Source: Streptomyces sp. NBC_01465 (lineage in GTDB: Bacteria > Actinomycetota > Actinomycetes > Streptomycetales > Streptomycetaceae). From it: a stretch of 64,000 nt of DNA. Below the pieces are notes generated by a model. It saw only the letters and a list, made by a program, of their open reading frames with translations, was not told where the DNA came from and made no database searches. The stretch covers positions 3,782,001-3,846,000 of the forward strand of contig NZ_CP109467.1 of NCBI RefSeq assembly GCF_036227325.1, read 5' to 3'. The translations under genes and the position numbers were made by a program. Positions within the stretch are counted from its first letter, which is position 1, and every line of letters starts with the position of its first letter. Positions 903-50,126 of the stretch are shown piece by piece.

Positions 903-1356
903 GATCTCCGCCCCCTCTCACTGCGATTGATTCGAGCCGCGAAGTTCGGGCTCGCAATCACCGTGCAGGGATCCTGGATATTGAGTGGATCTTGCTCAAA
1001 AACTGTGGACAAGCGAACGGTTGTGAATATGTCGGCCACTCTTACCGGTGACTTCCGGAGCGCAGCGCAACCGCTACACAACGTGACGAGTCTTGATGGT
1101 CAGAGGAAGGCGCCGGCACGGCGGAGCGCGAAGGAGACCGACGGGAAGAGAAAAGACACCGGAGCCGAAAATGCGTCCGGACATGCGACGACCCCAGCCG
1201 GGGGGGAGAGCTGGGGTCGTCCCCACGGTCGACTCGGGGGGGGAGGAGCCGAACCGGGGTAGCACGGTCGCGAACGATCCGTGACTTCCATGGTGTACCC
1301 GAAGGCCTTCTCAGGCAAACCCACGCGCCACAGAGTACGCCGAATGGTGGGCGCCT
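903..1356. other. Divergent intergenic region between ssd and the HAD phosphatase gene
   Basis: This 454-bp region holds no convincing gene. It must carry the promoters for both flanking genes. Its right half contains a strong hairpin at 1187-1221 and G-rich runs just after it. Short open frames here are arginine- and proline-rich and lack a ribosome binding site, so they look like noise. Confidence 0.6.
1187..1221. terminator. Perfect 12-bp hairpin in the ssd/HAD intergenic region
   Basis: GACGACCCCAGC at 1187-1198 pairs perfectly with GCTGGGGTCGTC at 1210-1221 around an 11-nt G-rich loop. Both flanking genes read away from this point, so it does not end either one. It could lie in the leader of the HAD gene or end an unannotated small transcript. 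Confidence 0.5.
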
Positions 1357-6083: not shown

Positions 6084-8417
6084 ATGTCTGCCTGCGCCCC
6101 CACTCGCACTCGTTCCCGCGCACGTCTGCGCATTCCGCGCTCCCAGCGCCCCCACTCCCCGCCGCCCGGCGGGGACGGCGACGGAAACGGCCGCCGACCG
6201 CGCTTCAGGCTCCGTATCGCCGGAGCCGATCTCTCCGCCTCGATCACCGTCTTCCTGATCGCCGTCCCGATGTCTCTGGGGCTCGCGGTCGCCATCAACG
6301 CCCCGCTGGAGGCAGGCCTCGTCGCCGCGGCCGTCGGCGGGATCCTCGCCGGACTGCTCGGCGGATCCGCCCTCCAGGTCAGCGGCCCCTCCGCCGGACT
6401 GACCGTCGTCACCGCCGAGTTGATCCAGGTGTACGGATGGCGCACCACCTGCGCCATCACCGTCTGCGCCGGTCTGCTCCAGGTCCTCCTCGGCTCGCTG
6501 CGCACCGCCCGCAGCGCACTCGCCGTCTCCCCCGCCATCGTGCACGGCACCCTCGCCGGCATCGGCGTCGCCATCGCGCTGGCCCAGCTCCACATCGTCC
6601 TCGGCGGCACGCCGCAGAGCTCGGCCGTGGACAACGCACTCGCCCTGCCCAGCCAGTTGGCCCGCATCGGCCCCGCCGCCCCGCTCATCGGGGCGCTCAC
6701 CATCGCCGTACTGGTGGGCTGGCCGCGCCTTCCCGGCCGTACGGGCAAGGCGCTGCGGAAGATCCCCGCCGCACTCGCCTCGGTCGTCCTGGCCACCGCC
6801 GTCGCCGCCTTCGCCGCGCCCGGAATCGCCCGCGTGGACCTGCCGTCCTGGAGTTCGCACGCGCTGCCGGAGATGCCGAAGGGGCCGGTCCTCGGCCTGA
6901 TCACGGCCGTCTTCACGGTGATGCTGGTGGCCAGCCTGGAGTCGCTGCTCTCCGCGGTGGCCATCGACAAGCTGAGCGCGGACCGCCCCGGCGCCACCGG
7001 CAAGCGGGCGGACCTCGACCGCGAGCTGCGCGGACAGGGCATCGCCAACGCCGTCTCCGGGCTGCTCGGCGGACTGCCCGTGTCGGGCGGCGCCGTGCGC
7101 GGCACCGCGAACGTACGGGCCGGAGCCACCGGCCGCGCCTCGACCGTGCTCCACGGAGTGTGGGTCCTGCTGGCAGCGGGTCTGCTGGTCACGGTCCTGG
7201 AGTGGATCCCGCTCGCCGCGCTGGCGGCGCTCGTGATGATGGTCGGCATCCAGATGGTCAACTTCGCGCACATCCGCAACGTCCACAAGCACCGCGAGTT
7301 CCTCGTGTACGTGGCCACGGTCTCCGGGGTCGTGCTGCTCGGTGTCCTGCAGGGCGTGGTCCTCGGGATCGCGGTCGCCGTCGGCGTCGCACTGCACCGC
7401 CTCGCCCGGACGCGGATCGTCTGCACGGAGGAGGAGAGCGGGCTCCACCGGGTGCGGGCTCGCGGCCAGTTGACATTCCTCGCTGTCCCCCGGCTGAGCC
7501 GGACGCTGGGACACATCCCTCAAGGAGCGCATGTGGTGGTGGAGTTGGACGGTTCCTTCATGGATCACGCCGCGTACGAGACGCTGCAGCACTGGCAGGA
7601 GGCGCACACCGCCCACGGCGGCCGCGTCGAGGTGACCGGGCGCGCCGGGGGCCGGATCGCCGAGCCCGCGTCCGCCACACAGGGCTGCTGCCGCCCCTGG
7701 ACGCCGTGGCGCAACCACCACTGCGACGACCACCACCCCAGGCAGCGGCCCGCGAGCCGTCAACTGGCCAGCGGTGTGAGCTCGTTCCAGCGCAATACCG
7801 CCCCGCTCGTACGGGAAGAACTGGCGCGCCTCGCCCGCGAGGGCCAGCAGCCCTCCCAGCTCTTCCTCACCTGCGCCGACTCCCGCGTGGTCACCAGCAT
7901 GATCACCTCCAGCGGCCCGGGCGATCTCTTCACCGTACGGAACGTGGGAAACCTGGTGCCGCTGCCCGGCGAGGAGGCCGCGGACGACTCCGTCGCGGCC
8001 GCCATCGAGTACGCGGTGGACGTCCTGCGGGTCGACTCGATCACCGTCTGCGGGCACTCGGGATGCGGTGCGATGCAGGCGCTGCTCAACGCGAGCCCGG
8101 ACGCCCCGATGACCCCGCTGCGGCGCTGGCTGCGGCACGGGCTGCCCAGCCTGCAGCGGATGCGCAGCCGCCACCACTCCTGGGCGCGGATCTCCGGGCG
8201 GCTCCCCGCCGATGCCGTCGAGCAGCTCTGCCTGACCAACGTCGTACAGCAGCTGGAGCATCTGCGGGCCCACGAGTCCGTGGCCAGGCGGCTGGCCGAG
8301 GGCACGCTCGAGCTGCACGGCATGTACTTCCACGTGGCCGAGGCCCAGGCGTATCTGCTCACCGACGCACACGTTTCCGAGCCGGAAGGGATCTTCGCTC
8401 AGGTTGCTCCCGCATAG
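6084..8417 (+). CDS. SulP anion transporter fused to beta-carbonic anhydrase
   Basis: This 777-residue fusion starts at ATG 6084. Residues about 45-430 are a SulP permease with 10 or more hydrophobic helices. A STAS-like domain covers roughly residues 455-525. A beta-class carbonic anhydrase covers roughly 560-777, with zinc and catalytic residues C597, D599, R601, H658 and C661 in the CADSR and HSGCGAM motifs. The fusion implies bicarbonate or sulfate transport coupled to CO2 hydration at the membrane. Between STAS and enzyme lies a short Cys/His-rich linker around residues 533-552. The frame is open far upstream of 6084, but that part overlaps the opposite gene and has no coding character. 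Confidence 0.9.
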   Translation: MSACAPTRTRSRARLRIPRSQRPHSPPPGGDGDGNGRRPRFRLRIAGADLSASITVFLIAVPMSLGLAVAINAPLEAGLVAAAVGGILAGLLGGSALQVSGPSAGLTVVTAELIQVYGWRTTCAITVCAGLLQVLLGSLRTARSALAVSPAIVHGTLAGIGVAIALAQLHIVLGGTPQSSAVDNALALPSQLARIGPAAPLIGALTIAVLVGWPRLPGRTGKALRKIPAALASVVLATAVAAFAAPGIARVDLPSWSSHALPEMPKGPVLGLITAVFTVMLVASLESLLSAVAIDKLSADRPGATGKRADLDRELRGQGIANAVSGLLGGLPVSGGAVRGTANVRAGATGRASTVLHGVWVLLAAGLLVTVLEWIPLAALAALVMMVGIQMVNFAHIRNVHKHREFLVYVATVSGVVLLGVLQGVVLGIAVAVGVALHRLARTRIVCTEEESGLHRVRARGQLTFLAVPRLSRTLGHIPQGAHVVVELDGSFMDHAAYETLQHWQEAHTAHGGRVEVTGRAGGRIAEPASATQGCCRPWTPWRNHHCDDHHPRQRPASRQLASGVSSFQRNTAPLVREELARLAREGQQPSQLFLTCADSRVVTSMITSSGPGDLFTVRNVGNLVPLPGEEAADDSVAAAIEYAVDVLRVDSITVCGHSGCGAMQALLNASPDAPMTPLRRWLRHGLPSLQRMRSRHHSWARISGRLPADAVEQLCLTNVVQQLEHLRAHESVARRLAEGTLELHGMYFHVAEAQAYLLTDAHVSEPEGIFAQVAPA

Positions 8418-30107: not shown

Positions 30108-30181
30108 CGGGGTGTAGCGCAGCTTGGCAGCGCGCTTCGTTCGGGACGAAGAGGTCGTGGGTTCAAATCCCGCCACCCCGA
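30108..30181 (+). tRNA. tRNA-Pro, anticodon CGG
   Basis: The 74-nt cloverleaf has acceptor arms CGGGGTG/CACCCCG with discriminator A. The anticodon stem CTTCG/CGAAG holds loop TTCGGGA, anticodon CGG at 30142-30144. The T arm contains GGTTCAAATCC. CCA is not encoded. The 3' part from 30140 is duplicated at 50082-50126, so this gene is the integration site of the element and stays intact after insertion. Confidence 0.95.
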
Positions 30182-30184
30182 CAG
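30140..30184 (+). repeat. Attachment site attL (45-bp direct repeat, 3' half of tRNA-Pro)
   Basis: The sequence from the anticodon loop through the end of the tRNA plus three bases is identical to 50082-50126. Bases flanking each copy differ. It marks the left boundary of the integrated element. Confidence 0.93.
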
Positions 30185-30252: not shown

Positions 30253-30292
30253 TGGGAGCCATTTGGGAGCCGACTTCGAGATGCGGCTCCCA
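30253..30292. promoter_or_regulatory. Left-end TGGGAGCC repeats (putative integrase arm sites)
   Basis: TGGGAGCC occurs at 30253-30260 and 30264-30271, 11 bp apart start to start, with an inverted copy at 30285-30292. The same pair with the same 11-bp spacing lies near the right end at 49958-49976, which suggests recombination-protein binding. Confidence 0.6.
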
Positions 30293-30467
30293 GAAGGAGA
30301 GTTCCAGGAGCTGGAGCTCCACCCCAACTGGCTCCGCGCACGTCGCCGTTCCGGCCGAGTCAACGCCACCCTAGGGACCTCACTCGCCATCCGTTTCGGG
30401 CAAGGCATCAGCGGCGGAATATTTCGTGCTACTGTTTCGTGGACTGATATGAGGCGGTGAGAAGCGC

Positions 30468-31577
30468 ATGGCAGCGGTCAGGCAGGAAGCACAGCCGGGG
30501 ATGCTCGTGTTGGCACGAGAGTCCCGGGGGTTGACCCAGGTAGAAGTCGCAGCCGCCATGACTAAGGCGTCTCAGGGGGAAGCGACTCCTGTGTCCCAGG
30601 GCTACGTGAGCCGTGCAGAAGCAGGGCGACTCGTCGTTAGTGACGAACGTCTGGCCCTATATGCCGCCGCCCTTGGATATCCTCCAGCGCTGCTCTGCCT
30701 GGACCCACAGGTGAGCGGCATTGGGGTGGGCTTGGTTCATCACCGCAAGAAGGCGTCCCTGTCCACGTCTGCCCTACGCCGCGTCCACGCTCACCTAGCC
30801 CTGGCCCGACTGCAGTTGGACGGCCTCACAGCGGAGGCAGGCGTGCCTGAGGAGCCGTCGCGCTTCGTAAGGGTCCCGTTGAACGACCTCGTGACCCCTA
30901 AGGACGCAGCACGCCGGGTCCGCCGGGAATGGAACATGCCGCCCGGCCCCGTGCTCGACATGGTTGGGGTAGCGGAGAGCGCTGGCGCCCTCGTACTCAC
31001 CGAAGACTTGGACAGCGACCTGTTGGACGCCGTGAGCCAGTGGCCCGAGGGGCGACAGCCGCTCCTGCTGGCCAACACTCGCACCCCCGGAGATCGTCGC
31101 CGCTTCAGCATCGCCCACGAGTTGGGGCACATGGTGATGCACCCGGTACCCGGGGCAGCGTCCACACAAGAGAAGCAGGCAGACGCCTTCGCCGCAGAGT
31201 TCCTGATGCCGGCCGCCGATATCCGAGCGTCCTTCTCAGACGGGATCGACCTATCTGGGCTGGCGGATCTCAAACGCACTTGGGGCGTTTCAATGTCGGC
31301 TCTCCTGCGCCGTGCCCAGACACTCAACACCATCAGCGAATGGCAGTACCGCACCCTGATGATCGAGATGTCAGCGCTCGGCTACCGGACGACAGAGCCG
31401 GTCGAGGTGCTCCCCGAACACCCTCAGCGAGTCGCCGCCCTCGTGCAGCACTTGCTGACTATTCGCCAGATGCCTCTTGAGGAGGCGGCAGCGTGTGCCC
31501 ATCTCCTCCCGGAGGACTTCCAGCGCCTATACGTCGATGGCGCCGACTCATCATCGATCCCAGCCACTCGAAGGTGA
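30468..31577 (+). CDS. XRE-HTH plus ImmA/IrrE metallopeptidase regulator
   Basis: A 369-residue protein. An N-terminal XRE-type HTH covers residues about 10-75 (RGLTQVEVAAAM, then VSQGYVSRAE). An ImmA/IrrE zinc-peptidase domain follows, with HELGH in FSIAHELGHMVMH near residue 222 and the third ligand Glu in DAFAAEFLMP. Such proteins cleave or relieve partner repressors on stress or element induction; in this fusion the HTH may be its own DNA anchor. The stop is two bases before the next gene's ATG, so the two form an operon. The gene is less GC-rich than core genes. Confidence 0.85.
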   Translation: MAAVRQEAQPGMLVLARESRGLTQVEVAAAMTKASQGEATPVSQGYVSRAEAGRLVVSDERLALYAAALGYPPALLCLDPQVSGIGVGLVHHRKKASLSTSALRRVHAHLALARLQLDGLTAEAGVPEEPSRFVRVPLNDLVTPKDAARRVRREWNMPPGPVLDMVGVAESAGALVLTEDLDSDLLDAVSQWPEGRQPLLLANTRTPGDRRRFSIAHELGHMVMHPVPGAASTQEKQADAFAAEFLMPAADIRASFSDGIDLSGLADLKRTWGVSMSALLRRAQTLNTISEWQYRTLMIEMSALGYRTTEPVEVLPEHPQRVAALVQHLLTIRQMPLEEAAACAHLLPEDFQRLYVDGADSSSIPATRR

Positions 31578-31579
31578 CC

Positions 31580-32803
31580 ATGAACGAGCCCTCGTCCTCG
31601 CTGCCCCGTCCTCGCTCCGATCTGACCGAGCCTCCCGACGCCGCGAGCCAGGTAGGGCAGTCGGAAGGCATGAGCCAGCTGCGCGGCCGCATGCTGATCC
31701 AAGTCAGTACCTTCCGCCTCAACTATGTTCAGGCGCACCTGGACCCCGGCCGAAGCGGACTCGTCCTGTGCGGAGAAGACGCAGTGAAGAAGGCTGGCAC
31801 CCTACGCTTCAAAGAGGGCTTCGACAGCCCGCTCCTGATCGACCCGGCTGTGTACGAGACTCGCGTCGCAACAGAAGACGATCCGTTCCCGTACGAGATC
31901 GAGCCCACGCTGTTCCTCGATGACCCCCTGGAACTTGCCTTGGCCGAGCAACGCGATGCCGGCGCGACGCTCGCTATGACACCCACGGGCTACATCAGGG
32001 CCGAAGACTCGGACGCCCTTCGTGCGGCCGTAACCCGCGTCCTGGAACTTGACGACCCAACAGTGGTCTTCGCTGCCCCTGTCGATGTCGCCTGGTTGCG
32101 CGACGAAGAGTCGACTCGCCAGCTCATCGCCTATTTGCGCATGCTCAAGGGCCCTAAGGCGATCATGCTGGGCGGACAAATGGATCCCCTCGGCCGATAC
32201 GCCAAAGCCGTAACCCATCTCAAGCGGCTCGTCGAGGAAGTTCCCGACGCGGCACTCCTGCGTACCGACCTCGCAGCCTTCGGCGCCCTGGCCGCTGGTG
32301 CAGCCTTCACTGCTTTCGGCACGAGTAGCCGCTACCGGCACATCGTCGCACCAGGCGAAAAGGCACAGACGAACAAGCGCATCCCTGTCAGGTCTCCGCA
32401 CGTTCTCTTCCCCGAGTTGATGGCGTTCTTCCTGGGAGAGACGATCGCCAAGCGCTACGGTGGCGCGGACACACCGGTCTGTTACTGCGCGTCCTGCGCT
32501 GGTAACCGCGCTCTGGATGCCTTTACGAGCAATCGCGGCGACCTGCCGGCCTCGGCGGCCGCTCACAATGTTGCGGTCCTCATGGAGTGGCTTCGCACCC
32601 TCGCCGCTGCCGAACCCGGACTCGCTCGTCAGCAGTGGTGGTACGACCGCTGCCGGACAGCCCTGGATCAGTACACGGTGATCAACGCGTCAATCCGGCA
32701 ACCGGGCGCCTTCAAGTCCCCTGCCCAACTGGACCGCTGGGCCCTCGAAGCACCCGAGCAGCTCGCCACCGATCAGAAGGCGGAAGCTGACCGGAGCCGC
32801 TGA
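31580..32803 (+). CDS. Protein with tRNA-guanine-transglycosylase-like zinc motif
   Basis: 407 residues from ATG 31580, preceded by GAAGGTG. Cysteines C301, C303 and C306 plus H329 reproduce the CxCxxC...HN zinc site of TGT/DpdA-type enzymes. LLIDPAVYE near residue 97 resembles the substrate-binding TDSGGFQ strand. The region that should carry the nucleophilic Asp (FDCVxPTR in TGT) reads like TAFGTSSRYRH, so that Asp is not evident. It is probably a TGT-fold relative; whether it modifies nucleic acid is unknown. It is co-transcribed with the XRE-ImmA gene, and its last 31 bases overlap the convergent gene. Confidence 0.5.
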   Translation: MNEPSSSLPRPRSDLTEPPDAASQVGQSEGMSQLRGRMLIQVSTFRLNYVQAHLDPGRSGLVLCGEDAVKKAGTLRFKEGFDSPLLIDPAVYETRVATEDDPFPYEIEPTLFLDDPLELALAEQRDAGATLAMTPTGYIRAEDSDALRAAVTRVLELDDPTVVFAAPVDVAWLRDEESTRQLIAYLRMLKGPKAIMLGGQMDPLGRYAKAVTHLKRLVEEVPDAALLRTDLAAFGALAAGAAFTAFGTSSRYRHIVAPGEKAQTNKRIPVRSPHVLFPELMAFFLGETIAKRYGGADTPVCYCASCAGNRALDAFTSNRGDLPASAAAHNVAVLMEWLRTLAAAEPGLARQQWWYDRCRTALDQYTVINASIRQPGAFKSPAQLDRWALEAPEQLATDQKAEADRSR

Positions 32804-33411
32804 TATAGGTCCTCGACGAACCACCAGGCCGCAGCGGTGTGTCGAGGCGGCCTGTACTCCTCCGGCTCCAGGACCAGCTCAACGTCACGTCCTGAGGCAA
32901 CGAACACACCGATTCCGTAGAAGTCAGCTTCCACCAAAGCTTCATCCAGACGAGCTGGCCTGCGATCCAGCAGCACAGCCCGGCGACAGAAGGGCGCGAA
33001 GCGACCAGCCTTCTCGAGCCCCTGACGCAAGCTGGCGGCGCGGACCACAGCAAGATCCACATGCACGGGACGCACAGCCTGCCTGGCCACGGTCTTCCGG
33101 CTGCGCTCAGCGGCCCCAGCTGGCAGGGCCCGGACAGCACGCCGCTCTTTTGGACCCAGCGTGTCCATTGGGACAGCAATGCCCACAGGCAGAGCCAGCA
33201 GAGACTCCAGATCGGCCATGTGAGCCAACGGCGCAGCTGAACTTCGCTCTCGCCGTGCGTGCTCAGCTGCGTCCAGTCGGTAGAAGCAAAGGGCCTCGAC
33301 CCCGCAGATCGACACGACCTGCGCCTGGCTCCCCGGCTCCAGCAGCGCGCGGGAGGCCACTCGCACAGAACCGTCCACTGCGGTATTCGCCAAGGTCACC
33401 ATGGCCTCCAC
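32773..33411 (-). CDS. Hypothetical protein convergent with the TGT-like gene
   Basis: A 212-residue soluble protein that I do not recognise. It has a basic central region (residues about 85-125) and a C-terminal VFVASGRDVELVLEPEEYRPP followed by WWFVEDLYQRL. No signal peptide or membrane helix is seen. The start is GTG 33411 with GGTGAGGCAGG upstream; ATG 33402 is an alternative. Codon use is that of the element rather than the core. It overlaps the 3' end of the TGT-like gene by 31 bp. Confidence 0.6.
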   Translation of the reverse strand: MEAMVTLANTAVDGSVRVASRALLEPGSQAQVVSICGVEALCFYRLDAAEHARRERSSAAPLAHMADLESLLALPVGIAVPMDTLGPKERRAVRALPAGAAERSRKTVARQAVRPVHVDLAVVRAASLRQGLEKAGRFAPFCRRAVLLDRRPARLDEALVEADFYGIGVFVASGRDVELVLEPEEYRPPRHTAAAWWFVEDLYQRLRSASAF

Positions 33412-33650: not shown

Positions 33651-35168
33651 TTATGAGAGCCCTACCCGCCGCGCCTTCAAGAGCGAGTCCAGCGCCCCTA
33701 CCGGCGACGTGGTGCACATCGCGAGCCGCGCGTCGAGCGCTGCTTCCCACTGTGCAGTGAGGCCAGCTACGAGACGCCGGCGCATGCCGACGGTGACGTG
33801 GGCGTAGCGGGCGGAGACCGAGCCGTCGATGTGGCCCATGCGTTCGTCCATGAGGACTTTCTCGGTGCCGAGGTCCTCCATCATCGTGCGGTGGGTGTGG
33901 CGCAGGCCGTGGGGTGTGAGGCCCTTGGCGATCGGGAGCCAGCAGGCGTCGGCCCGAGCGGCGGCTCCTCGGCCTCGGGCCGGGATGCCGGGCCATGGTT
34001 CACCGAGGATCGGTACCGGGCGGGCCTCCTGAGGGGCCTTCTTCGGGTACCAGCCTGAGACTGCCGGAGTGAACAGCCAGGTGGCGAAGCCGTTTCGGCG
34101 CCAGTGGGCCGCGTGCTCGGATGTGGTGCCGCCGCGCACGAAGGCGAGGTCCTGGATCGCCTGCTCCACCTGGGCGCGCTTCGCCTCCGAGACGCGGTCG
34201 GGGTGGTTGAGGACGTTCGAGACCGTACCCGTGGAGACTCCGGCGCGGCGAGCGATGTCGATGAGCTTGGCGCCCTGGTGGCCGCCGGTACGCGCCGCGC
34301 CCTGGCCTCGGAAGACGTATGTCCTGCCGTGGCAGGGGCAGGGCGTCGGCTTCGTACGGGCGATGTGGTTGAAGACCAGGGCGGACAGCCAGTCCGTCGA
34401 GTCGATGGTGCGGTAGCTGTCGTCCTTGGGCGGGCAGCGCACCAGCTCGCCGGTGTCCAGCTCGTACAGCTGCCACTCGACACGGAAGGAGTTGCGTCGG
34501 ACGAACTCCGTTTCCAGGCCGACGATTTCACCCCAGCGCTTGCCGGTGTAGCCCTTGAGGACCGTGGCGACGAACTCGTCATCCCGGCCGGAGAGCAGAG
34601 CCGCCCGCTCGGCGGTGAGCAGGATGCCGAGCGCGTCGGTGACGACCTTCTCCGGGCCTCGGTCGCGCGAGCGGCCTGCGCGCTTGCCTCGACCTCGGCG
34701 ACGGGCTGCCGGGTTGGACGTGAGCAGGCCCTCGTCGATCGCGTCCTCGAAGATCAGATGGAGCGTGGAACGCCAGGTCTTGACGCTGGAGGCCGCGTAC
34801 ACGGCTCGCTCCTTCTTCTCCCACAGCTCGACGTCCGTGCGCAGAATGCCCGCAATCGCCTTGTCCTCGAAGTCGGGGAGCAGGTGCTCCTCGATGTGGC
34901 GCTTGTAGTTCTGCATCGTCGAGGCGGCCAGGTCCTGCGCCTCGTACCAGCGGCTCGCGTACTCGCCGAAGGTCTCCTGGCCTAGCGTCGGATCGCGCCA
35001 GTCGCCACGCCGGAATTTGTTCTCCGCCTCGCTCGCCGCGCGCTGGGCTTCGCCCTTGGTGGCGAACTTCAGCGGCTTGTCGTCCTCGCCGACGACCGTG
35101 AGGTGTTTGCCGGGCGCGATCTTGTAGCGGCCGCGCCAGTAGTTTCCGCGCTTCTCGCCGAAACCCAT
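33651..35168 (-). CDS. int: Tyrosine integrase with embedded LacI-type HTH
   Basis: A 505-residue site-specific recombinase. A SAM-like core-binding domain covers residues about 65-150. The catalytic residues are R211 (TGKRWGE), H420 and R423 (HGLRHT), H446 (MGHIDG) and nucleophile Y455 (SARYAHVT). Residues about 301-347 form a complete LacI-family HTH with its hinge, inserted in the catalytic domain between R211 and H420. This is more than the usual integrase needs. It is the only integrase in the element and should use the tRNA-Pro repeat. Its gene is followed upstream by the excisionase-like gene, 27 bp away. Confidence 0.92.
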   Translation of the reverse strand: MGFGEKRGNYWRGRYKIAPGKHLTVVGEDDKPLKFATKGEAQRAASEAENKFRRGDWRDPTLGQETFGEYASRWYEAQDLAASTMQNYKRHIEEHLLPDFEDKAIAGILRTDVELWEKKERAVYAASSVKTWRSTLHLIFEDAIDEGLLTSNPAARRRGRGKRAGRSRDRGPEKVVTDALGILLTAERAALLSGRDDEFVATVLKGYTGKRWGEIVGLETEFVRRNSFRVEWQLYELDTGELVRCPPKDDSYRTIDSTDWLSALVFNHIARTKPTPCPCHGRTYVFRGQGAARTGGHQGAKLIDIARRAGVSTGTVSNVLNHPDRVSEAKRAQVEQAIQDLAFVRGGTTSEHAAHWRRNGFATWLFTPAVSGWYPKKAPQEARPVPILGEPWPGIPARGRGAAARADACWLPIAKGLTPHGLRHTHRTMMEDLGTEKVLMDERMGHIDGSVSARYAHVTVGMRRRLVAGLTAQWEAALDARLAMCTTSPVGALDSLLKARRVGLS

Positions 35169-35195: not shown

Positions 35196-35573
35196 CTAGG
35201 CCGCAGTCCCAAACTGGCTCTGACGCGCTCGGCGCGGTGGCCGGGCGCGGAGACGGGCCGTGGGAACGGCGGGCGACGAAGGAGGCTGTGGAGCAGCGGA
35301 CTTGACGGCAGGAGCCGCTTTCGCTGCCCCTTGCTGCGGGAGGGCAGGGCGGGCCTCGTTCATTCGGATGATCTCCGCGAGGTGCTCGCCGGTGAAGCGG
35401 TACGCGCGGCCGACGCGGGTGAAGGGGATGAGCCGACGACGGGCCCGGTCCTTGACCCACCAGGCGGAGCAGCCGAGTACGTCGGCGACTTCCTCGGGGA
35501 CATAGAGGCGCGGCAGGGCGACCTCGGCGTCCGAGGTCGGAACGGAGGCAGGGGGTATTGCGGGTTGGCGCAA
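35196..35573 (-). CDS. xis: Excisionase-like MerR/HTH_17 DNA-binding protein
   Basis: A 125-residue protein with a winged HTH at residues about 22-70: LYVPEEVADVLGCSAWWVKD, then RRLIPFTRVGRAYRF. It has a long basic, Pro/Ala-rich C-terminal tail. This layout is typical of AICE excisionases (HTH_17 domain). It lies 27 bp upstream of int on the same strand, which supports a directionality role. Confidence 0.8.
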   Translation of the reverse strand: MRQPAIPPASVPTSDAEVALPRLYVPEEVADVLGCSAWWVKDRARRRLIPFTRVGRAYRFTGEHLAEIIRMNEARPALPQQGAAKAAPAVKSAAPQPPSSPAVPTARLRARPPRRARQSQFGTAA

Positions 35574-39010: not shown

Positions 39011-39042
39011 GCCCCCTCCGTGCCGACCCGCAAGAGGGGGGC
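39011..39042. promoter_or_regulatory. Inverted repeat upstream of mobC (possible oriT component)
   Basis: GCCCCCTC at 39011-39018 faces GAGGGGGGC at 39034-39042 (one extra G) around a 15-nt spacer. It lies in the gap before the MobC and relaxase genes, the usual place for a transfer origin. No nic consensus was recognised. Confidence 0.35.
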
Positions 39043-39097
39043 ACCGTGCCCACATACAGCGAACACTCGCCCCCAGCACTCCACGGAGAAACAGCCC

Positions 39098-39748
39098 ATG
39101 CACGACCCGCACCACGAACTCACCACCACCCAGCCGGAGATGATCACCGGCCTGAACAGCGCAGCAAGGTATCCCGCTGGACCGTCCACAGGCCGGTCCT
39201 ACGGGGAAGCCTCCGCCCCGGGGGTGGCGGAGGCACTCGGGCACCAGGGGGTGCCCGAGGAGAAGCAGTCCGCCGACGCCGATCCCGCCGCGCCGTTGCC
39301 GCGTGCCGCCGACGTCGCCGCTCTGCACCGTGTCGCCCAACGTCGCAAGCCCGACCCGAGCGGCCGGCGCAAGGAGCGCGTCGATGTCCGCTACAGCGTT
39401 GAGGAGAGGGACGCCATCCTCGCCAAGGCCACGTCGCTGAACCTCAGCGGCGCCCACTACGTCGCCGCCGTCACCCTGGCCCACGTGGAAGGTGACCTCA
39501 CCGTGCCCGGCCAGCGCACTCAGCTGGACGACTACATCGACGAGCTCAACGCCCTGCGCCAACAGGTCGCCCGCATTGGCCGCAACGTCAACCAGATCGC
39601 CACGAAGCTCAACTCCGGCGGCCATCCGCACCCTGGGGACAGCGCCCTCCTCGCCCAGACCGACCGCACCCTGGACGCGGTCGGTGAGGCTGTGCGCCAC
39701 ATCGCGGCAGCCGCGAACCAGGCCGTCAGCCACAAGGCGGCCCGATGA
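39098..39748 (+). CDS. mobC: Mobilization relaxosome protein MobC
   Basis: 216 residues from ATG 39098. The N-terminal half is disordered, then RVDVRYSVEERDAILAKA resembles a ribbon-helix-helix. LRQQVARIGRNVNQIATKLN near residue 155 is the MobC signature, and a C-terminal helical region follows. MobC proteins bind near oriT and help the relaxase nick. It overlaps the relaxase gene by four bases (ATGA), so the two are translated together. Confidence 0.88.
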   Translation: MHDPHHELTTTQPEMITGLNSAARYPAGPSTGRSYGEASAPGVAEALGHQGVPEEKQSADADPAAPLPRAADVAALHRVAQRRKPDPSGRRKERVDVRYSVEERDAILAKATSLNLSGAHYVAAVTLAHVEGDLTVPGQRTQLDDYIDELNALRQQVARIGRNVNQIATKLNSGGHPHPGDSALLAQTDRTLDAVGEAVRHIAAAANQAVSHKAAR

Positions 39749-41436
39749 TCGCGAAGATCACCGGCGGCAAGGACACCGCCAACCTGATCCGCTACCTCTA
39801 CAACACGAAGAAGAAGGGCCACACCGACCCGCACCTGGTCGCCTCCTGGGATGGCTTCGCTCCCGACCCCGGCCGCGCCGATGACTTCGACGCCACCAAG
39901 CGGGCTCTCGTCGCCGACCTCGACCTGCACGTCAAGCAGGCCGAGCGGCTCGGCCGCGCGCCCGAACGCCATACGTGGCACTGCTCGGTCCGCGCTGCCA
40001 AGACCGACCGCATCCTGAGTGACGAGGAGTGGGGCGACACCGCCCGCCGCGTTGTCGCCGCCACCGGCATCGCTCCGGAAGGTGATCCGGACGGCTGTCG
40101 CTGGGTCGCCGTCCGCCACGCCGACGACCACATCCACATCGCCGCCACCACCGTCCGCGCCGACCTGCGCACGGCACGCCACTGGAACGACTACCTCACC
40201 GCCGACCGTGAACTCGCTGCCATTGAGAGGGAGTACGGCCTGTTCCAGATCGTGCGTGGGGATCGCACCGCCGCGAAGCGGCCCACCCGCGCAGAGCAGG
40301 AGAAGGCCAAGCGCGCGGGACAGACCCGCACCGCCCGCGAACGCCTGCGCACCACGGTGCGTACCGCCGTGGCTGCCGCCACCAGCACTGAGGAGTTCGT
40401 CTACCTGCTGGAGCACGCCGATGGCGTGCTCGTGGACGTCAAGCACTTCCCGTCCGGGGATGTACGCGGCTACACGGTCGCCCTCGAAGGTGACGTCAAC
40501 GGCACACAGGAACCGATCTGGTACTCCGGCTCCGAACTCTCCCCGGACCTGTCCTTTCCCAAGATCCGAAAGCGCCTCGACGCCACCGAGCCGAAGCAAG
40601 GCCCACGCAAGACCAACCCATGGCACCAAGCCACCGCCGTAACGGAACGCATCCCCAACCGCCTTGAGCGCGGCGAGGATGCAGCGGCTCAGGCCCACCT
40701 GGCCGCCCTCGGTGAAGCCCTTGACGCCCTGCCCCTTCGCGCACCCCAGGCGATTCGGCCCCAACTCATGCAGGCAGCTGAGGTGTTCGAGCGCGCCACT
40801 CGCTCCCGCATCCAGGCCGAGCACCAGCACGCCCGCGCCCTACGCGGCGCCGTGCGAGCCATGGTCCGCGAGCCCGCCCCCAAGGACGGCGCCCTCCTGG
40901 CGATGTTCCTCGACGCCGCGATCCTCGCCGTCATCGCCGCCGCCCGCTGGCACCAGCTCCGCCATCACGACCAACAGGTGGCCGCAGCCCACCAGACCCT
41001 GGTCCATCTGCAGGCTGCCTACGAGCAGACAGCCACCGCACCGCTGACCGCGCTCGCCCAGCGCCGCCCACCCACGCAGGTAGTGGAGCGGCACATCCTC
41101 CTCATCCGGCAGACAGTGCCCGATCACGCGGAACAGGTACTGGAGGATCTGGCCTTCGACGCACTCACAGCCGTGCTCGCGGACGCCGAGAAGGCCGGCC
41201 ATGACCCGAAGCAGCTCCTGCAGCAGGCCGCCGACCAGCGTGCGCTGGACGATGCCCGCCGCCCCGCGCGAGTCCTGACCTGGCGCGTCGAACGCCTCAG
41301 CACGAGGTCGGCGCCCAGCACCCGCGCTCGTGCGGCACAAGCACAGAGTGCGGCACGCCGTCCGAGCATGACGGTGTCGTCGCCACTGGCTACTCCGGCG
41401 CCACCGCCACCGCCGTCGCAGGCGCGGCGACGCTGA
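39745..41436 (+). CDS. Relaxase (mobilization nuclease)
   Basis: A 563-residue protein that should nick oriT and lead single-stranded DNA into a recipient. The N-terminal IRYLYNTKKKG offers the catalytic Tyr. The HADDHIHI segment near residue 130 is the metal-binding histidine motif of MobA/MobL-type relaxases. Its C-terminal half is helical with a possible hydrophobic segment (residues about 385-400) and a Pro/Arg-rich tail. It forms a unit with mobC. A relaxase is unusual for a Streptomyces AICE, where TraB normally acts alone. Confidence 0.88.
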   Translation: MIAKITGGKDTANLIRYLYNTKKKGHTDPHLVASWDGFAPDPGRADDFDATKRALVADLDLHVKQAERLGRAPERHTWHCSVRAAKTDRILSDEEWGDTARRVVAATGIAPEGDPDGCRWVAVRHADDHIHIAATTVRADLRTARHWNDYLTADRELAAIEREYGLFQIVRGDRTAAKRPTRAEQEKAKRAGQTRTARERLRTTVRTAVAAATSTEEFVYLLEHADGVLVDVKHFPSGDVRGYTVALEGDVNGTQEPIWYSGSELSPDLSFPKIRKRLDATEPKQGPRKTNPWHQATAVTERIPNRLERGEDAAAQAHLAALGEALDALPLRAPQAIRPQLMQAAEVFERATRSRIQAEHQHARALRGAVRAMVREPAPKDGALLAMFLDAAILAVIAAARWHQLRHHDQQVAAAHQTLVHLQAAYEQTATAPLTALAQRRPPTQVVERHILLIRQTVPDHAEQVLEDLAFDALTAVLADAEKAGHDPKQLLQQAADQRALDDARRPARVLTWRVERLSTRSAPSTRARAAQAQSAARRPSMTVSSPLATPAPPPPPSQARRR

Positions 41437-42076: not shown

Positions 42077-42769
42077 TCAGAGCTTGCGGGCGGTGATCAG
42101 CAAGGTGGTGGGCCAGCGGCCGTGGCGAGCGTCGTGGAACTCCTGAGCTGAGGTGAGCCAGAAGCCCGCGCGGGAGAGGTGTGTCTCCCAACGGCCGGCG
42201 TCGAAGTCCCATCGAGCGACAGGGAGTCGGGTGCGGTCCGGGAGCATCACGTGATCACGACGTGGCCGATCGTCCGCTGAGGGACGGCGGCCTCCACGCT
42301 CGGGGTGGGGCACCGTGAAGGCCAGGATCCGGCCGGGCTTCACGTGCTGGGCTATCGCCGGGAGCAGGAGTTCGGGTGCGACCAGGCCGACAGCGCCGAA
42401 GACCGAGTAGATGGCGTCGAACCGCTCGTCACTGGCTTGCAGGTAGTGCAGAGCGTGGCCGGCAACGAAGGTGAGGTTGCTGAGACGTCCATAGTGGGAG
42501 CGAGCTCGGCGGACTTGAAGGCCCACGAGGTCGAGGCCGGTGACGTGCGCTCCGTGCCGGGTGGCGAGGTGGGCGGCGTTGTGGCCGGGGCCGCAGCCGA
42601 GTTCGAGCAGCCGCTTCCCGGCCAGGTCGGGGCCGAGTATCTCGGCGCCGGGGCCGCTGCCGGGCCTGGTGGTCCATTCCATCCTGGCCGGTACGGGAAG
42701 TGGTTCGGCGGGGCGAGCGGTGCGCTGGAGTGCGTGCGCGTGCCAGGGGGATGCCTGAGCGAGCGACAT
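42077..42769 (-). CDS. Class I SAM-dependent methyltransferase
   Basis: A 230-residue protein with motif I LLELGCGPGHNAAHLA near residue 54, the acidic loop VTGLDLVG near residue 76 and FDAIYSVFGAVG near residue 117. The fold and size suggest a small-molecule methyltransferase; no target-recognition domain for DNA or RNA is present. The methyltransferase stop and the HAD start are separated by 28 bp, and its own start adjoins the APH-like gene's stop, so co-transcription is likely. Confidence 0.82.
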   Translation of the reverse strand: MSLAQASPWHAHALQRTARPAEPLPVPARMEWTTRPGSGPGAEILGPDLAGKRLLELGCGPGHNAAHLATRHGAHVTGLDLVGLQVRRARSHYGRLSNLTFVAGHALHYLQASDERFDAIYSVFGAVGLVAPELLLPAIAQHVKPGRILAFTVPHPERGGRRPSADDRPRRDHVMLPDRTRLPVARWDFDAGRWETHLSRAGFWLTSAQEFHDARHGRWPTTLLITARKL

Positions 42770-43681
42770 CTAGACCTCCAGGAGCCGGAGGGCATCGGTG
42801 AGATGGCGGCGTACGACCTTGATGTACGCGGGGTCGGTGGCCGGGTCGTTGATCCAGCGGATGGCCTGCTCCATGAACCACTCCACCGCCCACACCCGGT
42901 GCCAGCCCAGCGCCCATTTCTCAGCGGGGAGACCACCGCGCTCGGCAAGGGCGTCGGGAGTGCCGCCTTCGGCGACATACGTCTCCAGGAAGACACGCAG
43001 ACGTGTGGGGTCGGGCTCCTCGAGGGTGCCGTGCCAGCCGGCGAGGTCGAGCAGGCCAGGGCCGGTGAAGGCGCGGGCGAAATCCAGGAGCCGCCAGCCG
43101 CGTTGGCCGATGTGGAGGCTGGTTGGGTGGAACTCGGAGTGCACCCAGCCGAACGGCTCCGTCATCGCTCCCGCCGAGCGAGCCTCGGCGGCCTGAACCA
43201 GCCGGTCGAGCGCACCCTCGACGTCGTCCGCATCCTGCCACCGCTCGGCCTTTCGGAGCTGGTCGAGGTGGTCCAGTGCGCGGCTGGGCAGGGATCGCAG
43301 GGCTTGCTGGTCGAAGAGGGGCAGGGCCGGCGCGCTACGTGTGCGGTGCAGGACCACGGCTGCGGCGGCGCCGTCGAGGTCGTCGGCGTCACGGATGGGG
43401 GTGCCGAGGTCCTCCAGCAGCATCCCCAGCCAGCCGTCCAGTGTCGCGGAAGCGTGGACCTTCGGGACCGGAACACCGAGGGTATGAGCGAGGCGGAGGG
43501 CTTGGTCCTCACTGTCGAAGGGCTTCTTGGCGTACTTGAAGATGGCGGTGGAGCCGTCGGAGAGTGTCAATCGTTCGACGCCGGACATGGACCAGACGCG
43601 CACCTCGTCGCGCGCTACGGCGGACTTGCCAGTGGCGGTCAGCACGTTGTCCAACAGTTCGGCGTTGAGGTTCGCGTCCAT
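42770..43681 (-). CDS. Aminoglycoside-phosphotransferase-like protein with altered catalytic loop
   Basis: A 303-residue protein of the APH/choline kinase fold. The catalytic loop that is HGDxxxxN in active enzymes reads HSEFHPTSL at residues 181-189, so Asp is Glu and Asn is Ser. LLDFARAF keeps the metal-binding Asp of the following motif. N-terminal TAIFKYAKK includes a plausible ATP-binding Lys. It could be a weak kinase, a binding protein, or a kinase with changed chemistry. It is directly followed by the methyltransferase gene. Confidence 0.7.
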   Translation of the reverse strand: MDANLNAELLDNVLTATGKSAVARDEVRVWSMSGVERLTLSDGSTAIFKYAKKPFDSEDQALRLAHTLGVPVPKVHASATLDGWLGMLLEDLGTPIRDADDLDGAAAAVVLHRTRSAPALPLFDQQALRSLPSRALDHLDQLRKAERWQDADDVEGALDRLVQAAEARSAGAMTEPFGWVHSEFHPTSLHIGQRGWRLLDFARAFTGPGLLDLAGWHGTLEEPDPTRLRVFLETYVAEGGTPDALAERGGLPAEKWALGWHRVWAVEWFMEQAIRWINDPATDPAYIKVVRRHLTDALRLLEV

Positions 43682-43753
43682 CAGGGACTCCTGTGGTTGA
43701 AGGCGTCCGGGGCGGGCGAGAGTGCCGGCCCGCCCCGGAGCCGGGCGTACGGG

Positions 43754-44512
43754 CTATGCGGCGGGTGCTACCCGGTGGGCGTAGACCTGCTCGATCCAAC
43801 CGGCCTTGAACTCGGCAAGGTCGTCACGGAAGTTGGCCATCGACGCACCGTAGGGCGCGACGACTCCACCGGACTGATCCGGCACGGACTGGCAGCCGTG
43901 CACGAGCCGCCCGCCGAGCGCGGCGTGGGCCTTGATGGACTCGATGCGGCGGTGCTCGTTGAACCAGCCGCCGTGGTAGACCTCGTCCAGCAGGCCACCC
44001 ATCTCCACGTCCAGATCGAAGACGACGGAGGTCGCTGCGGGGAAGAACCAGCACGGGCCGACGTTGGAGATGTGCCCGTCCAGCTCGACCTTGTTCAGCG
44101 CCATCAGCGTGGCCGCCTCACGCAGCATCCGCAGATGCTCGGCGGTGATCTGTGGCAGGCCGAGCGAGGCGAGGTGCTCCTCCCGGAACAGATACGCGTA
44201 CACCTCGTACGCGATGGACAGCACACGGGCCGCGTCGGAGGTGGACTCGCTGTGCTGCTTGATGAAGTCGAGCGCGAGCTGCTCGACGGCGCTCTCGGTC
44301 GTCTCCTCCACCTCCAGGAGCTGGGACTTGACCAGCTCCCAGTCGGCGACGAGCCAGCTGTTGGACTCGAAGCGGAAGAAGTACTCGGCCGGGTCGATGG
44401 TGATGCGCCGGCCCTCGACCTGGATGCCGGGCAGGCGACTCCAGCGCTCGTCGAAAGCCTCGGGGAGTTCGACCGTGATGGCCGTGCGGGTTGCGATGTC
44501 GATGGTGGTCAC
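43754..44512 (-). CDS. Unknown conserved-type protein, first gene of minus-strand cluster
   Basis: 252 residues from GTG 44512 with GGAGA upstream. The upstream frame to 44677 is proline-rich and unlikely to be translated. I do not recognise a domain. The protein is soluble, acidic and helical, with PAEYFFRFESNSW near residue 45, VGPCWFFPAATSVVFDLD near residue 160 and YHGGWFNEHRRIE near residue 190. It is divergent from the XRE-TPR regulator and separated from the APH-like gene by 72 bp. It is the least understood protein of this island. Confidence 0.62.
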   Translation of the reverse strand: MTTIDIATRTAITVELPEAFDERWSRLPGIQVEGRRITIDPAEYFFRFESNSWLVADWELVKSQLLEVEETTESAVEQLALDFIKQHSESTSDAARVLSIAYEVYAYLFREEHLASLGLPQITAEHLRMLREAATLMALNKVELDGHISNVGPCWFFPAATSVVFDLDVEMGGLLDEVYHGGWFNEHRRIESIKAHAALGGRLVHGCQSVPDQSGGVVAPYGASMANFRDDLAEFKAGWIEQVYAHRVAPAA

Positions 44513-44743
44513 CGGGGTCTCCGTCTCTGTTCGGCCGGGCTCGGGCACAGGAATGACCGAACCCGAAGCGGGCGTACGGAACTTGGGAGCCGCCCGGCCA
44601 AGTGGGGAGCCTGGATTCACGGTCGGACCTGGAACCGTTCCGGGCGGCTGATGATTAGTGAACCTGCCATCACGCACAGTGGGTACGGTGAAGGGCAGTT
44701 GAAGTGGTATACGCGGTTTACAGCCCTAGACACGGAGGCGATC

Positions 44744-46099
44744 GTGGCAGCGCAGAGAGCCCCCAACTCCCGCCTGCGCGATGTCATCGACGCCATCGGC
44801 TGCACATACGAGGCCCTGGCGAAGGACGTTCGGCGCATCGCCGCCGAGAACGGCGAGATCATCCAGACCAACAAGTCGGCGATCTCCCACTGGGTGAACG
44901 GCACCCGCCAGCCCAGCGGCCGGACCAGCCGATACCTCGCCGAAGCGCTGACCCGCCGCACCGGCCGCATCGTCACTCTGGCCGAGATCGGCCTGGGCAC
45001 GGTGGACGGTAACGAACAGGACGAGGGCGACCCGGTCCTGGCGGTGACCGATCTGGGCCGCGCAGACGTCGAGCGCCACCACTACCTCGCGGTCGCCACC
45101 TTCACGACTGCGGGCGTCGCCATGCCGCTCGCGTACGACCACGAGGCCACCGCCCGCATGCTCCGAGCCCGCACCGGCACCACGCTGGTCGGCGCGGAGG
45201 ACGTGGACGTCGTACGCCAGATCACCGCAGCCTTCAGCGCAGCCGACGAACGCCTCGGCGGCGGCCACGGTCTGACCACTGTCACCGCCTACCTCGCCGA
45301 CACCGCCGCCCCGATGCTCCGCGGGCGCTTCACCGCCGAGCCGTTACGCCGGGCAGCCTTCGGTGCCGTTGCCGAACTCGCCTACCTGGCAGGCTGGAAG
45401 CATCACGACCTCGGTCAGGAAGGCGCCGCCCAGCGCTACTACCGAGTCGGCTACCAGCTCGCCTGCGAGGCCGACCCGCACGGTCACGCCGCCTGGATGA
45501 TGCGAGCCCTCGCCCACCAGGCGCTCAGCCTGAAGCAACCCCACCACTGCGTCGACCTCGCCGAAGCAGCTCTCTCCCAGGGCACCGGTCACATCGACGG
45601 ACAGACCGAGGCCCTGCTCCACATCACGCACGCCCGCGCCTACGCGGCCACCAACGAGAAGCCCGCCGCCGCACGCGCCCTGCTCGCTGCCGAGGACGCC
45701 CTCCTGCGCGATGACGGCCCCCAGCCCAGCTACTCCCGCGTCAGCGGCCCGGCCGCCGGCACCGTGGCCAGCCACACCGCCCGCACCCTGACCGACCTCG
45801 CCGATCACGTCGGCACCGAGCAGCAGCACCGCGATGCCTTGGTGCGTTGGGACCCGGTGAAGTACAAGCGCGTCCACGCCCTGACCTACGCCGACCTGGG
45901 CGACAGCCTCGCAGCCCAGGCCCGCGCCGACGAGGCTGTCGCCGCCTGGTCGCAAGCTCTCACGCTCATGGAGGGCATGACCTCCGACCGCACCCGTAAG
46001 GCAATCACGTCACTGCGGTCCACTCTCGCGATCTACCAACGTCGCAAAGTGCCCGGGGCTACCGAACTCGCCCGCCGTGCGCGCGAAGCACTCGCCTAA
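44744..46099 (+). CDS. XRE-type regulator with TPR-like helical domain
   Basis: 451 residues from GTG 44744, preceded by GGAGG. The N-terminal DNA-binding region (RLRDVIDAIGCTYEALAKDV, SAISHWVNGTRQPSG) covers residues 10-75. The rest, about 370 residues, is a series of helix pairs like those of TPR-containing Streptomyces regulators, with EALLHITHARAYAATNE and LTYADLGDSLAAQARADEA. It probably controls the divergent four-gene run and the Nudix gene 33 bp downstream. The open frame extends far upstream to 42305 but is antisense to real genes there. Confidence 0.82.
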   Translation: MAAQRAPNSRLRDVIDAIGCTYEALAKDVRRIAAENGEIIQTNKSAISHWVNGTRQPSGRTSRYLAEALTRRTGRIVTLAEIGLGTVDGNEQDEGDPVLAVTDLGRADVERHHYLAVATFTTAGVAMPLAYDHEATARMLRARTGTTLVGAEDVDVVRQITAAFSAADERLGGGHGLTTVTAYLADTAAPMLRGRFTAEPLRRAAFGAVAELAYLAGWKHHDLGQEGAAQRYYRVGYQLACEADPHGHAAWMMRALAHQALSLKQPHHCVDLAEAALSQGTGHIDGQTEALLHITHARAYAATNEKPAAARALLAAEDALLRDDGPQPSYSRVSGPAAGTVASHTARTLTDLADHVGTEQQHRDALVRWDPVKYKRVHALTYADLGDSLAAQARADEAVAAWSQALTLMEGMTSDRTRKAITSLRSTLAIYQRRKVPGATELARRAREALA

Positions 46100-49957: not shown

Positions 49958-49976
49958 TGGGAGCCGACTGGGAGCC
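49958..49976. promoter_or_regulatory. Right-end TGGGAGCC repeats (putative integrase arm sites)
   Basis: TGGGAGCC occurs at 49958-49965 and 49969-49976, 11 bp apart as at the left end, and is followed by the same GACTT. It lies about 105 bp inside the right attachment repeat. Confidence 0.6.
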
Positions 49977-50081
49977 GACTTGCTCCCCAAGCCCCTTCCA
50001 CACCATGCGAGACCGATCAGGGCCACACTCCTCACCAGGCGAAACGCTATTTCCGCAGGCAAGATCACCAACCGAACCTCA

Positions 50082-50126
50082 TTCGGGACGAAGAGGTCGT
50101 GGGTTCAAATCCCGCCACCCCGACAG
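50082..50126 (+). repeat. Attachment site attR (45-bp direct repeat)
   Basis: An exact copy of 30140-30184: the anticodon-loop-to-3'-end part of tRNA-Pro. No complete tRNA precedes it, so it is the displaced 3' end and the right boundary of the element. Confidence 0.93.

Follow-up and report, generated by a model that had tools for sequence, protein, structure and literature searches.

The main finding of this study is a conserved pair of genes, one of which encodes a protein with the predicted fold of tRNA-guanine transglycosylases (TGT) and an apparently altered active site, carried together with a regulatory gene on an integrative element of the soil bacterium Streptomyces sp. NBC_01465, whose genome consists of a single contig of 9.14 Mb. 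The stretch analyzed here (64,000 nucleotides of contig NZ_CP109467.1, hereafter the window, whose numbering is used throughout) contains these genes, named A, B, and C and collectively the trio, just within the attL end of the element:

30416-30455, forward strand: putative promoter/operator-like block upstream of A, conserved in an alignment of loci
30468-31577, forward strand: gene A (369 residues), XRE helix-turn-helix (HTH) domain fused to an M78 (ImmA/IrrE) metallopeptidase, RmrA/CapP-like
31580-32803, forward strand: gene B (407 residues), TGT-fold protein with a TGT-type zinc site and no acidic residue at the presumed nucleophile position
32773-33411, reverse strand: gene C, a conserved partner that converges on B and overlaps its end by 31 bases

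We tentatively favor, somewhat short of an even chance, the view that the trio is a mobile stress or defense cassette in which a fused CapH/CapP-like switch of the RmrA family governs B, a TGT-fold enzyme with altered chemistry and with C as its working partner. Such a module would modify nucleic acid and would act in defense or counter-defense. A first-pass annotation of the sequence had suggested a defense, counter-defense, or stress module; what it observed is confirmed, including the three open reading frames (ORFs), the length of B, its start two bases beyond the stop of A, and the overlap with C, and its interpretation is partly supported. Neither outcome that it had named as refuting, a fold of B other than a TIM barrel or a lack of conserved linkage among the genes, was obtained.

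Structure prediction and fold comparison returned for B a TGT-type TIM barrel with a zinc domain, as the annotation had anticipated, and the match of the predicted model to TGT structures, including the archaeal ArcTGT (1iq8), covers most of the protein. The TGT-type zinc ligands proposed from the sequence are nearly invariant among 109 relatives (C301 in 107, C303 in 108, C306 in 107, and H329 in 108), and the site is for this reason not a chance pattern. The region of the nucleophilic aspartate, already suspected of being changed, carries alanine in 89, serine in 16, and glycine in 4 of the 109 sequences at position 245, where strand order and spacing at the end of strand 8 place the nucleophile. 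R228, D230, R253, and H254 are present in 109 of 109 relatives and D88 in 102 (glutamate in 4, a gap in 3), and the model positions these five residues at or just past the ends of the barrel strands; the copy of B in locus L080, with two of these residues altered, is an exception. The motifs GGQ-DPL, RTD, and RH stand in place of the TGT ones, while weak HHalign alignments put a D-x3-Y of B at the TDSGGY position of TGT and D88 at the aspartate of TDSGG(Y/F)Q. On the evidence of the model and the alignment, B seems to have lost the catalytic residue typical of TGT and to have acquired a different set of conserved residues. B shares the predicted fold of TGT and was not classed as a TGT because of the alanine, serine, or glycine at the presumed nucleophile position.

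Sequence models added little to this assignment. The Pfam TGT model PF01702 matched neither B nor any of the 52 aligned rows at E<=0.5, and none of the PADLOC RmrT models matched B or its 51 aligned relatives. A DpdA model touched 1 of the 52 rows (E 0.0037); an unrelated DinG model scored better in the same scan (0.0016), so the DpdA match may be due to chance. Direct comparison of B with the DpdA sequence of phage 9g gave no convincing match, by a method that also scored TGT against 9g DpdA weakly. Neither QueC nor TGT was matched in the host genome, the QueC search being positive in 12 of 14 control genomes. The closest relatives of B are from Streptomyces, and its clade spans several actinomycete families. 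The best structural match in a viral library was BFVD A0A5J6TRS2, from Gordonia phage Powerball (E 5.2e-6).

The genomic context of B was surveyed in 45 loci, namely the window, 27 loci from species genomes, one plasmid, and 16 further genome stretches, with duplicates that include L015/L071, L019/L072, and L022/L076. In the 27 genome loci, C was convergent with B in all 27 and A lay upstream in 20. Overall C adjoins B in 43 of 45 loci, the two in which it was not found (L081 and L083) having B at about 30% identity. The coupling of A to B noticed by the first-pass annotation was thus recovered as linkage and not as a constant unit, since A is present in 26 loci and missing in 19 (in L084 the contig end is too close for certainty on A); B and C form the core and more constant unit, rather than A and B. 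The linkage extends to the Arthrobacter plasmid pAAG24-80 (L001), which carries A, a B 26% identical, and, directly adjoining B, a C-like ORF without annotation (6786-7397, reverse strand, 203 residues, 19% identical) that was counted by serving as its own query. Searching with C, 11 of 147 genomes of the order were positive (its own included), with B adjacent in 10 of 11; a C relative 37% identical and lacking B on the B side (L110, 152-676) was the sole such case seen. No earlier report of the B-C pair was found in the literature searched.

The tree of B requires five changes in the presence of A, at least three of them across well-supported branches, and nine A-less rows, representing seven distinct sequences, form one clade in whose genomes the B frame is open. 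Three A-less copies of B (L026, L027, and L028) are split or truncated, as is that of L085, where A is broken as well; the B match of G216 has two in-frame stops, and those of G061 and G237, where A is present, have one each, which tblastn does not show. The stop of B in L077 is the normal gene end. The ratio of nonsynonymous to synonymous substitutions was 0.10-0.25 for A, B, and C where computable, at synonymous divergences above 0.9 except for the pairs window-L002 and L012-L021. A small protein encoded by a gene designated D, winged-helix-like when read by eye and without a Pfam match, lies just upstream of C on the strand of C in 15 of the 45 loci (for example, L008 7878-8207); the window lacks it.

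The annotation had described A as an XRE-ImmA regulator, which holds (Peptidase_M78 1.4e-20, HTH_3 1.5e-6, and a HELGH motif) and can be refined, on its sequence matches, to membership in the known RmrA/CapP-like regulator class. A matches 14 PADLOC RmrA models (best 1.6e-58), the CapP chain 7t5t is its sole solved-structure relative at E<=0.001 (3.2e-5), and the NCBIfam spr1629 repressor/antitoxin model matches it under the model cut-off (95 of 335 bits). Alignment of the stretch before A from 15 loci revealed a conserved block amid unrelated flanks. Its pattern precedes A in 23 of the 26 A-bearing loci and in none of the 19 without A, a count in which the 15 loci used to derive the pattern are not independent; the exceptions are L001, L023, and L085, whose contig begins inside A. 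In the 9.14-Mb genome the 16-base core of the block has a single occurrence and its reversed pattern none, and the block may represent an operator or promoter for A.

For C, called simply unknown in the annotation, many homologues start at the position equivalent to ATG 33402 here (209 residues). Its top structural neighbors, by weak matches, are PaqCI, NucS/EndoMS, and SPO1766, several of which belong to the PD-(D/E)XK superfamily. The motif D...(D/E)xK of such a nuclease was not found in C: the aligned family has no conserved lysine or catalytic acid, the acid position being set by our own alignment to the motif. Residues 57-115 form an inserted segment that reads like a winged helix. C is a conserved protein, perhaps with a catalytically dead PD-(D/E)XK fold.

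In the reading that we favor, the XRE domain of A would bind the conserved block and hold the A-B operon low until the activated peptidase half leads to cleavage of the repressor and production of B; by analogy with CapH and CapP, the trigger may be single-stranded DNA that arises during phage replication or through damage. TGT enzymes are known to exchange bases by a covalent route. B would instead bind nucleic acid and act on a base without the exchange through a covalent aspartate, D88, R228, D230, R253, and H254 forming a rebuilt active site, and most simply it would be either a glycosylase acting by hydrolysis or a transferase that uses a base different from preQ. C, whose linkage to B is observed, would be the working partner of B, most likely as a subunit with a catalytically dead nuclease fold that binds DNA and either directs B to its target or holds it back. 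Because B and C persist where A is missing, A would be the switch and not the sole antidote. A bolder version, possible and more doubtful, is that the TGT-fold clade lacks the covalent aspartate, acts on bases through the rebuilt D/R/D/R-H site, and serves as effector of a cassette with a one-protein CapH-CapP-like sensor and a dead nuclease-fold partner, which would make it a new base-acting conflict system.

An integrative element of 20 kb carries the trio as cargo, in agreement with the mobile setting proposed by the annotation; exact 45-base repeats bound the element, its other genes include those for an integrase, an excisionase-like protein, MobC, and a relaxase, and the trio sits between attL and the integrase:

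30108-30182: tRNA-Pro(CGG), overlapping the attL core
30140-30184, forward strand: attL core, formed by the 3' half of tRNA-Pro(CGG) and identical to 50082-50126 over its 45 bases
33651-35168, reverse strand: tyrosine integrase of the element (Pfam)
35196-35573, reverse strand: excisionase-like HTH_17 gene of the element (Pfam)
39020-41436, forward strand: MobC/NikA-like and relaxase genes of the element (ORF scan)
50082-50126, forward strand: attR core, exact 45-base repeat of 30140-30184

A LacI-type HTH (PF00356, residues 302-344, 3.4e-15) lies inside the integrase, between its N- and C-terminal integrase matches, and an ORF of 1264 residues downstream of the relaxase (42305-46099) has no Pfam match. 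A 12-13-base word, TGGGAGCCGACT(T), is repeated at 30264-30276, 49958-49969, and 49969-49981, close to both att sites, and these are perhaps arm-type sites of the integrase. Elsewhere in the window, a 6C RNA (1183-1258, reverse strand) scored barely over the Rfam gathering threshold.

Among the A-less loci, L019 adjoins a DUF4011/MTES_1575 helicase (PDC-S37) and a protein of 280 residues, the same pair being judged by size in L072 and L075, while L074 adjoins a Vsr gene and L080 a NACHT protein; L024 and L026 adjoin genes that read, by eye, like a transporter or transposase. These surroundings may represent defense islands. Three relatives of A (37-39% identity) occur without B. In two of these loci the gene ahead of the A relative encodes a protein of 213 or 203 residues, with 46% identity between the two, and AriA/PtuA-like or HNH genes come after it. 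Two phages have A-like genes preceded by genes for proteins of 206 and 227 residues that are weakly related to these (blastp E 8e-5 to 0.03). By these sequence relationships, A is part of a partner-changing class. The protein of about 210 residues and the A-like XRE-M78 gene after it in L094 (4022-8404) and L095 (3773-6442), ahead of an AriA/PtuA-like ATPase or HNH genes, are a possible undescribed RmrA-type pair.

The main rival to the favored reading is a toxin-antitoxin system of the RosmerTA type, in which B would be a new TGT-fold RmrT-like toxin, such as an enzyme removing RNA or DNA bases, neutralized and repressed by A and freed by phage infection. We consider it unlikely, and still the strongest of the alternatives. 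The RmrA matches of A, its two-base spacing from B, the block before A, and the partner swapping seen where other proteins precede its relatives (two loci and two phages) all speak for it, as do the diverse toxin partners of RmrA antitoxins in the portion of the literature consulted (PMC10440598). The absence of A from 19 of 45 loci argues against strict dependence, B stays open without A across the nine-member clade, and the more constant partner C has no place in the RosmerTA descriptions within the excerpted source (PMC10440598); the module was not classed as RosmerTA because B has no RmrT match and A is often absent. It is less probable again that the trio serves the element itself, with A an ImmR/ImmA-like regulator and B and C in maintenance or transfer rather than defense. 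The location between attL and integrase, the same order beside an 84%-identical integrase in L002, and the regulation of such elements by ImmA-type proteins, in the part of that source drawn on (PMC10440598), are consistent with it, whereas the core of the block is not found at the integrase or transfer genes and this integrase was matched in 1 of 28 loci (partly in L066), other integrases not having been searched for.

Two further explanations are improbable to a similar degree. If the trio were a restriction-modification system or a Dpd-like one in reduced form, B would insert a modified base in host DNA, C would cut unmodified DNA, and A would exert control; the TGT fold of B is shared with such systems, and against them stand the better-scoring DinG model, the missing acidic residue of B and lysine of C, the lack of a QueC or TGT match, and the absence of DpdB- and DpdC-type matches among the 17 scanned ORFs. 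The module was not classed as Dpd because the scanned ORFs gave no such partners and the genome search no sign of the precursor. Eukaryotic TGT has an accessory subunit, and B could be a comparable catalytically dead subunit that merely binds tRNA or DNA. The apparent loss of the nucleophile would fit this idea, but in the model the residues conserved by the strand ends look like a working site, the altered L080 copy being an exception.

If the reading that we favor is true, an actinomycete TGT-fold clade with an apparently lost nucleophile and a new invariant set would widen the repertoire of this fold, B would become a testable candidate effector for RmrA/CapP-type switches, and two closely paired gene families that lack annotation would gain a structural starting point. 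Compared with bacterial Tgt and ArcTGT, B has the same predicted barrel and C-x-C-x2-C...H zinc domain and, by weak alignment, a similarly placed D-x3-Y, and differs in its active-site motifs, its Pfam result, and a host without a QueC match. TGT-family proteins are recorded in defense loci, in BRC systems, in the available portion of one source (PMC12839542), and B resembles them and DpdA as a TGT-family protein in accessory conflict-type loci; unlike in Dpd systems, no DpdB-, DpdC-, HerA-, or BREX-type matches occur among the 17 element ORFs scanned (smaller ORFs and reverse-strand ORFs beyond 36.3 kb lay outside the scan), and the sequence of B does not convincingly match 9g DpdA. C may resemble PaqCI, NucS/EndoMS, and SPO1766, its top structural neighbors, in fold, and differs from PD-(D/E)XK nucleases in its catalytic positions and winged-helix-like insertion. 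RosmerTA pairs RmrA with diverse RmrT toxins (PMC10440598) and shares with the trio an RmrA-type protein beside a partner gene, whereas the trio has a partner outside the RmrT models, an A absent from 19 of 45 loci, and a third gene. CapH and CapP, an HTH repressor and a peptidase, control immune operons according to the section of the source used (PMC13373217); here the HTH and HExxH peptidase functions are fused in a single CapP-matching protein and the gene downstream belongs to no known immune operon, while the conserved block before A may be the counterpart of the CapH operator. By analogy, the module would work like a CapH/CapP- or RmrA-type switch that drives an effector operon.
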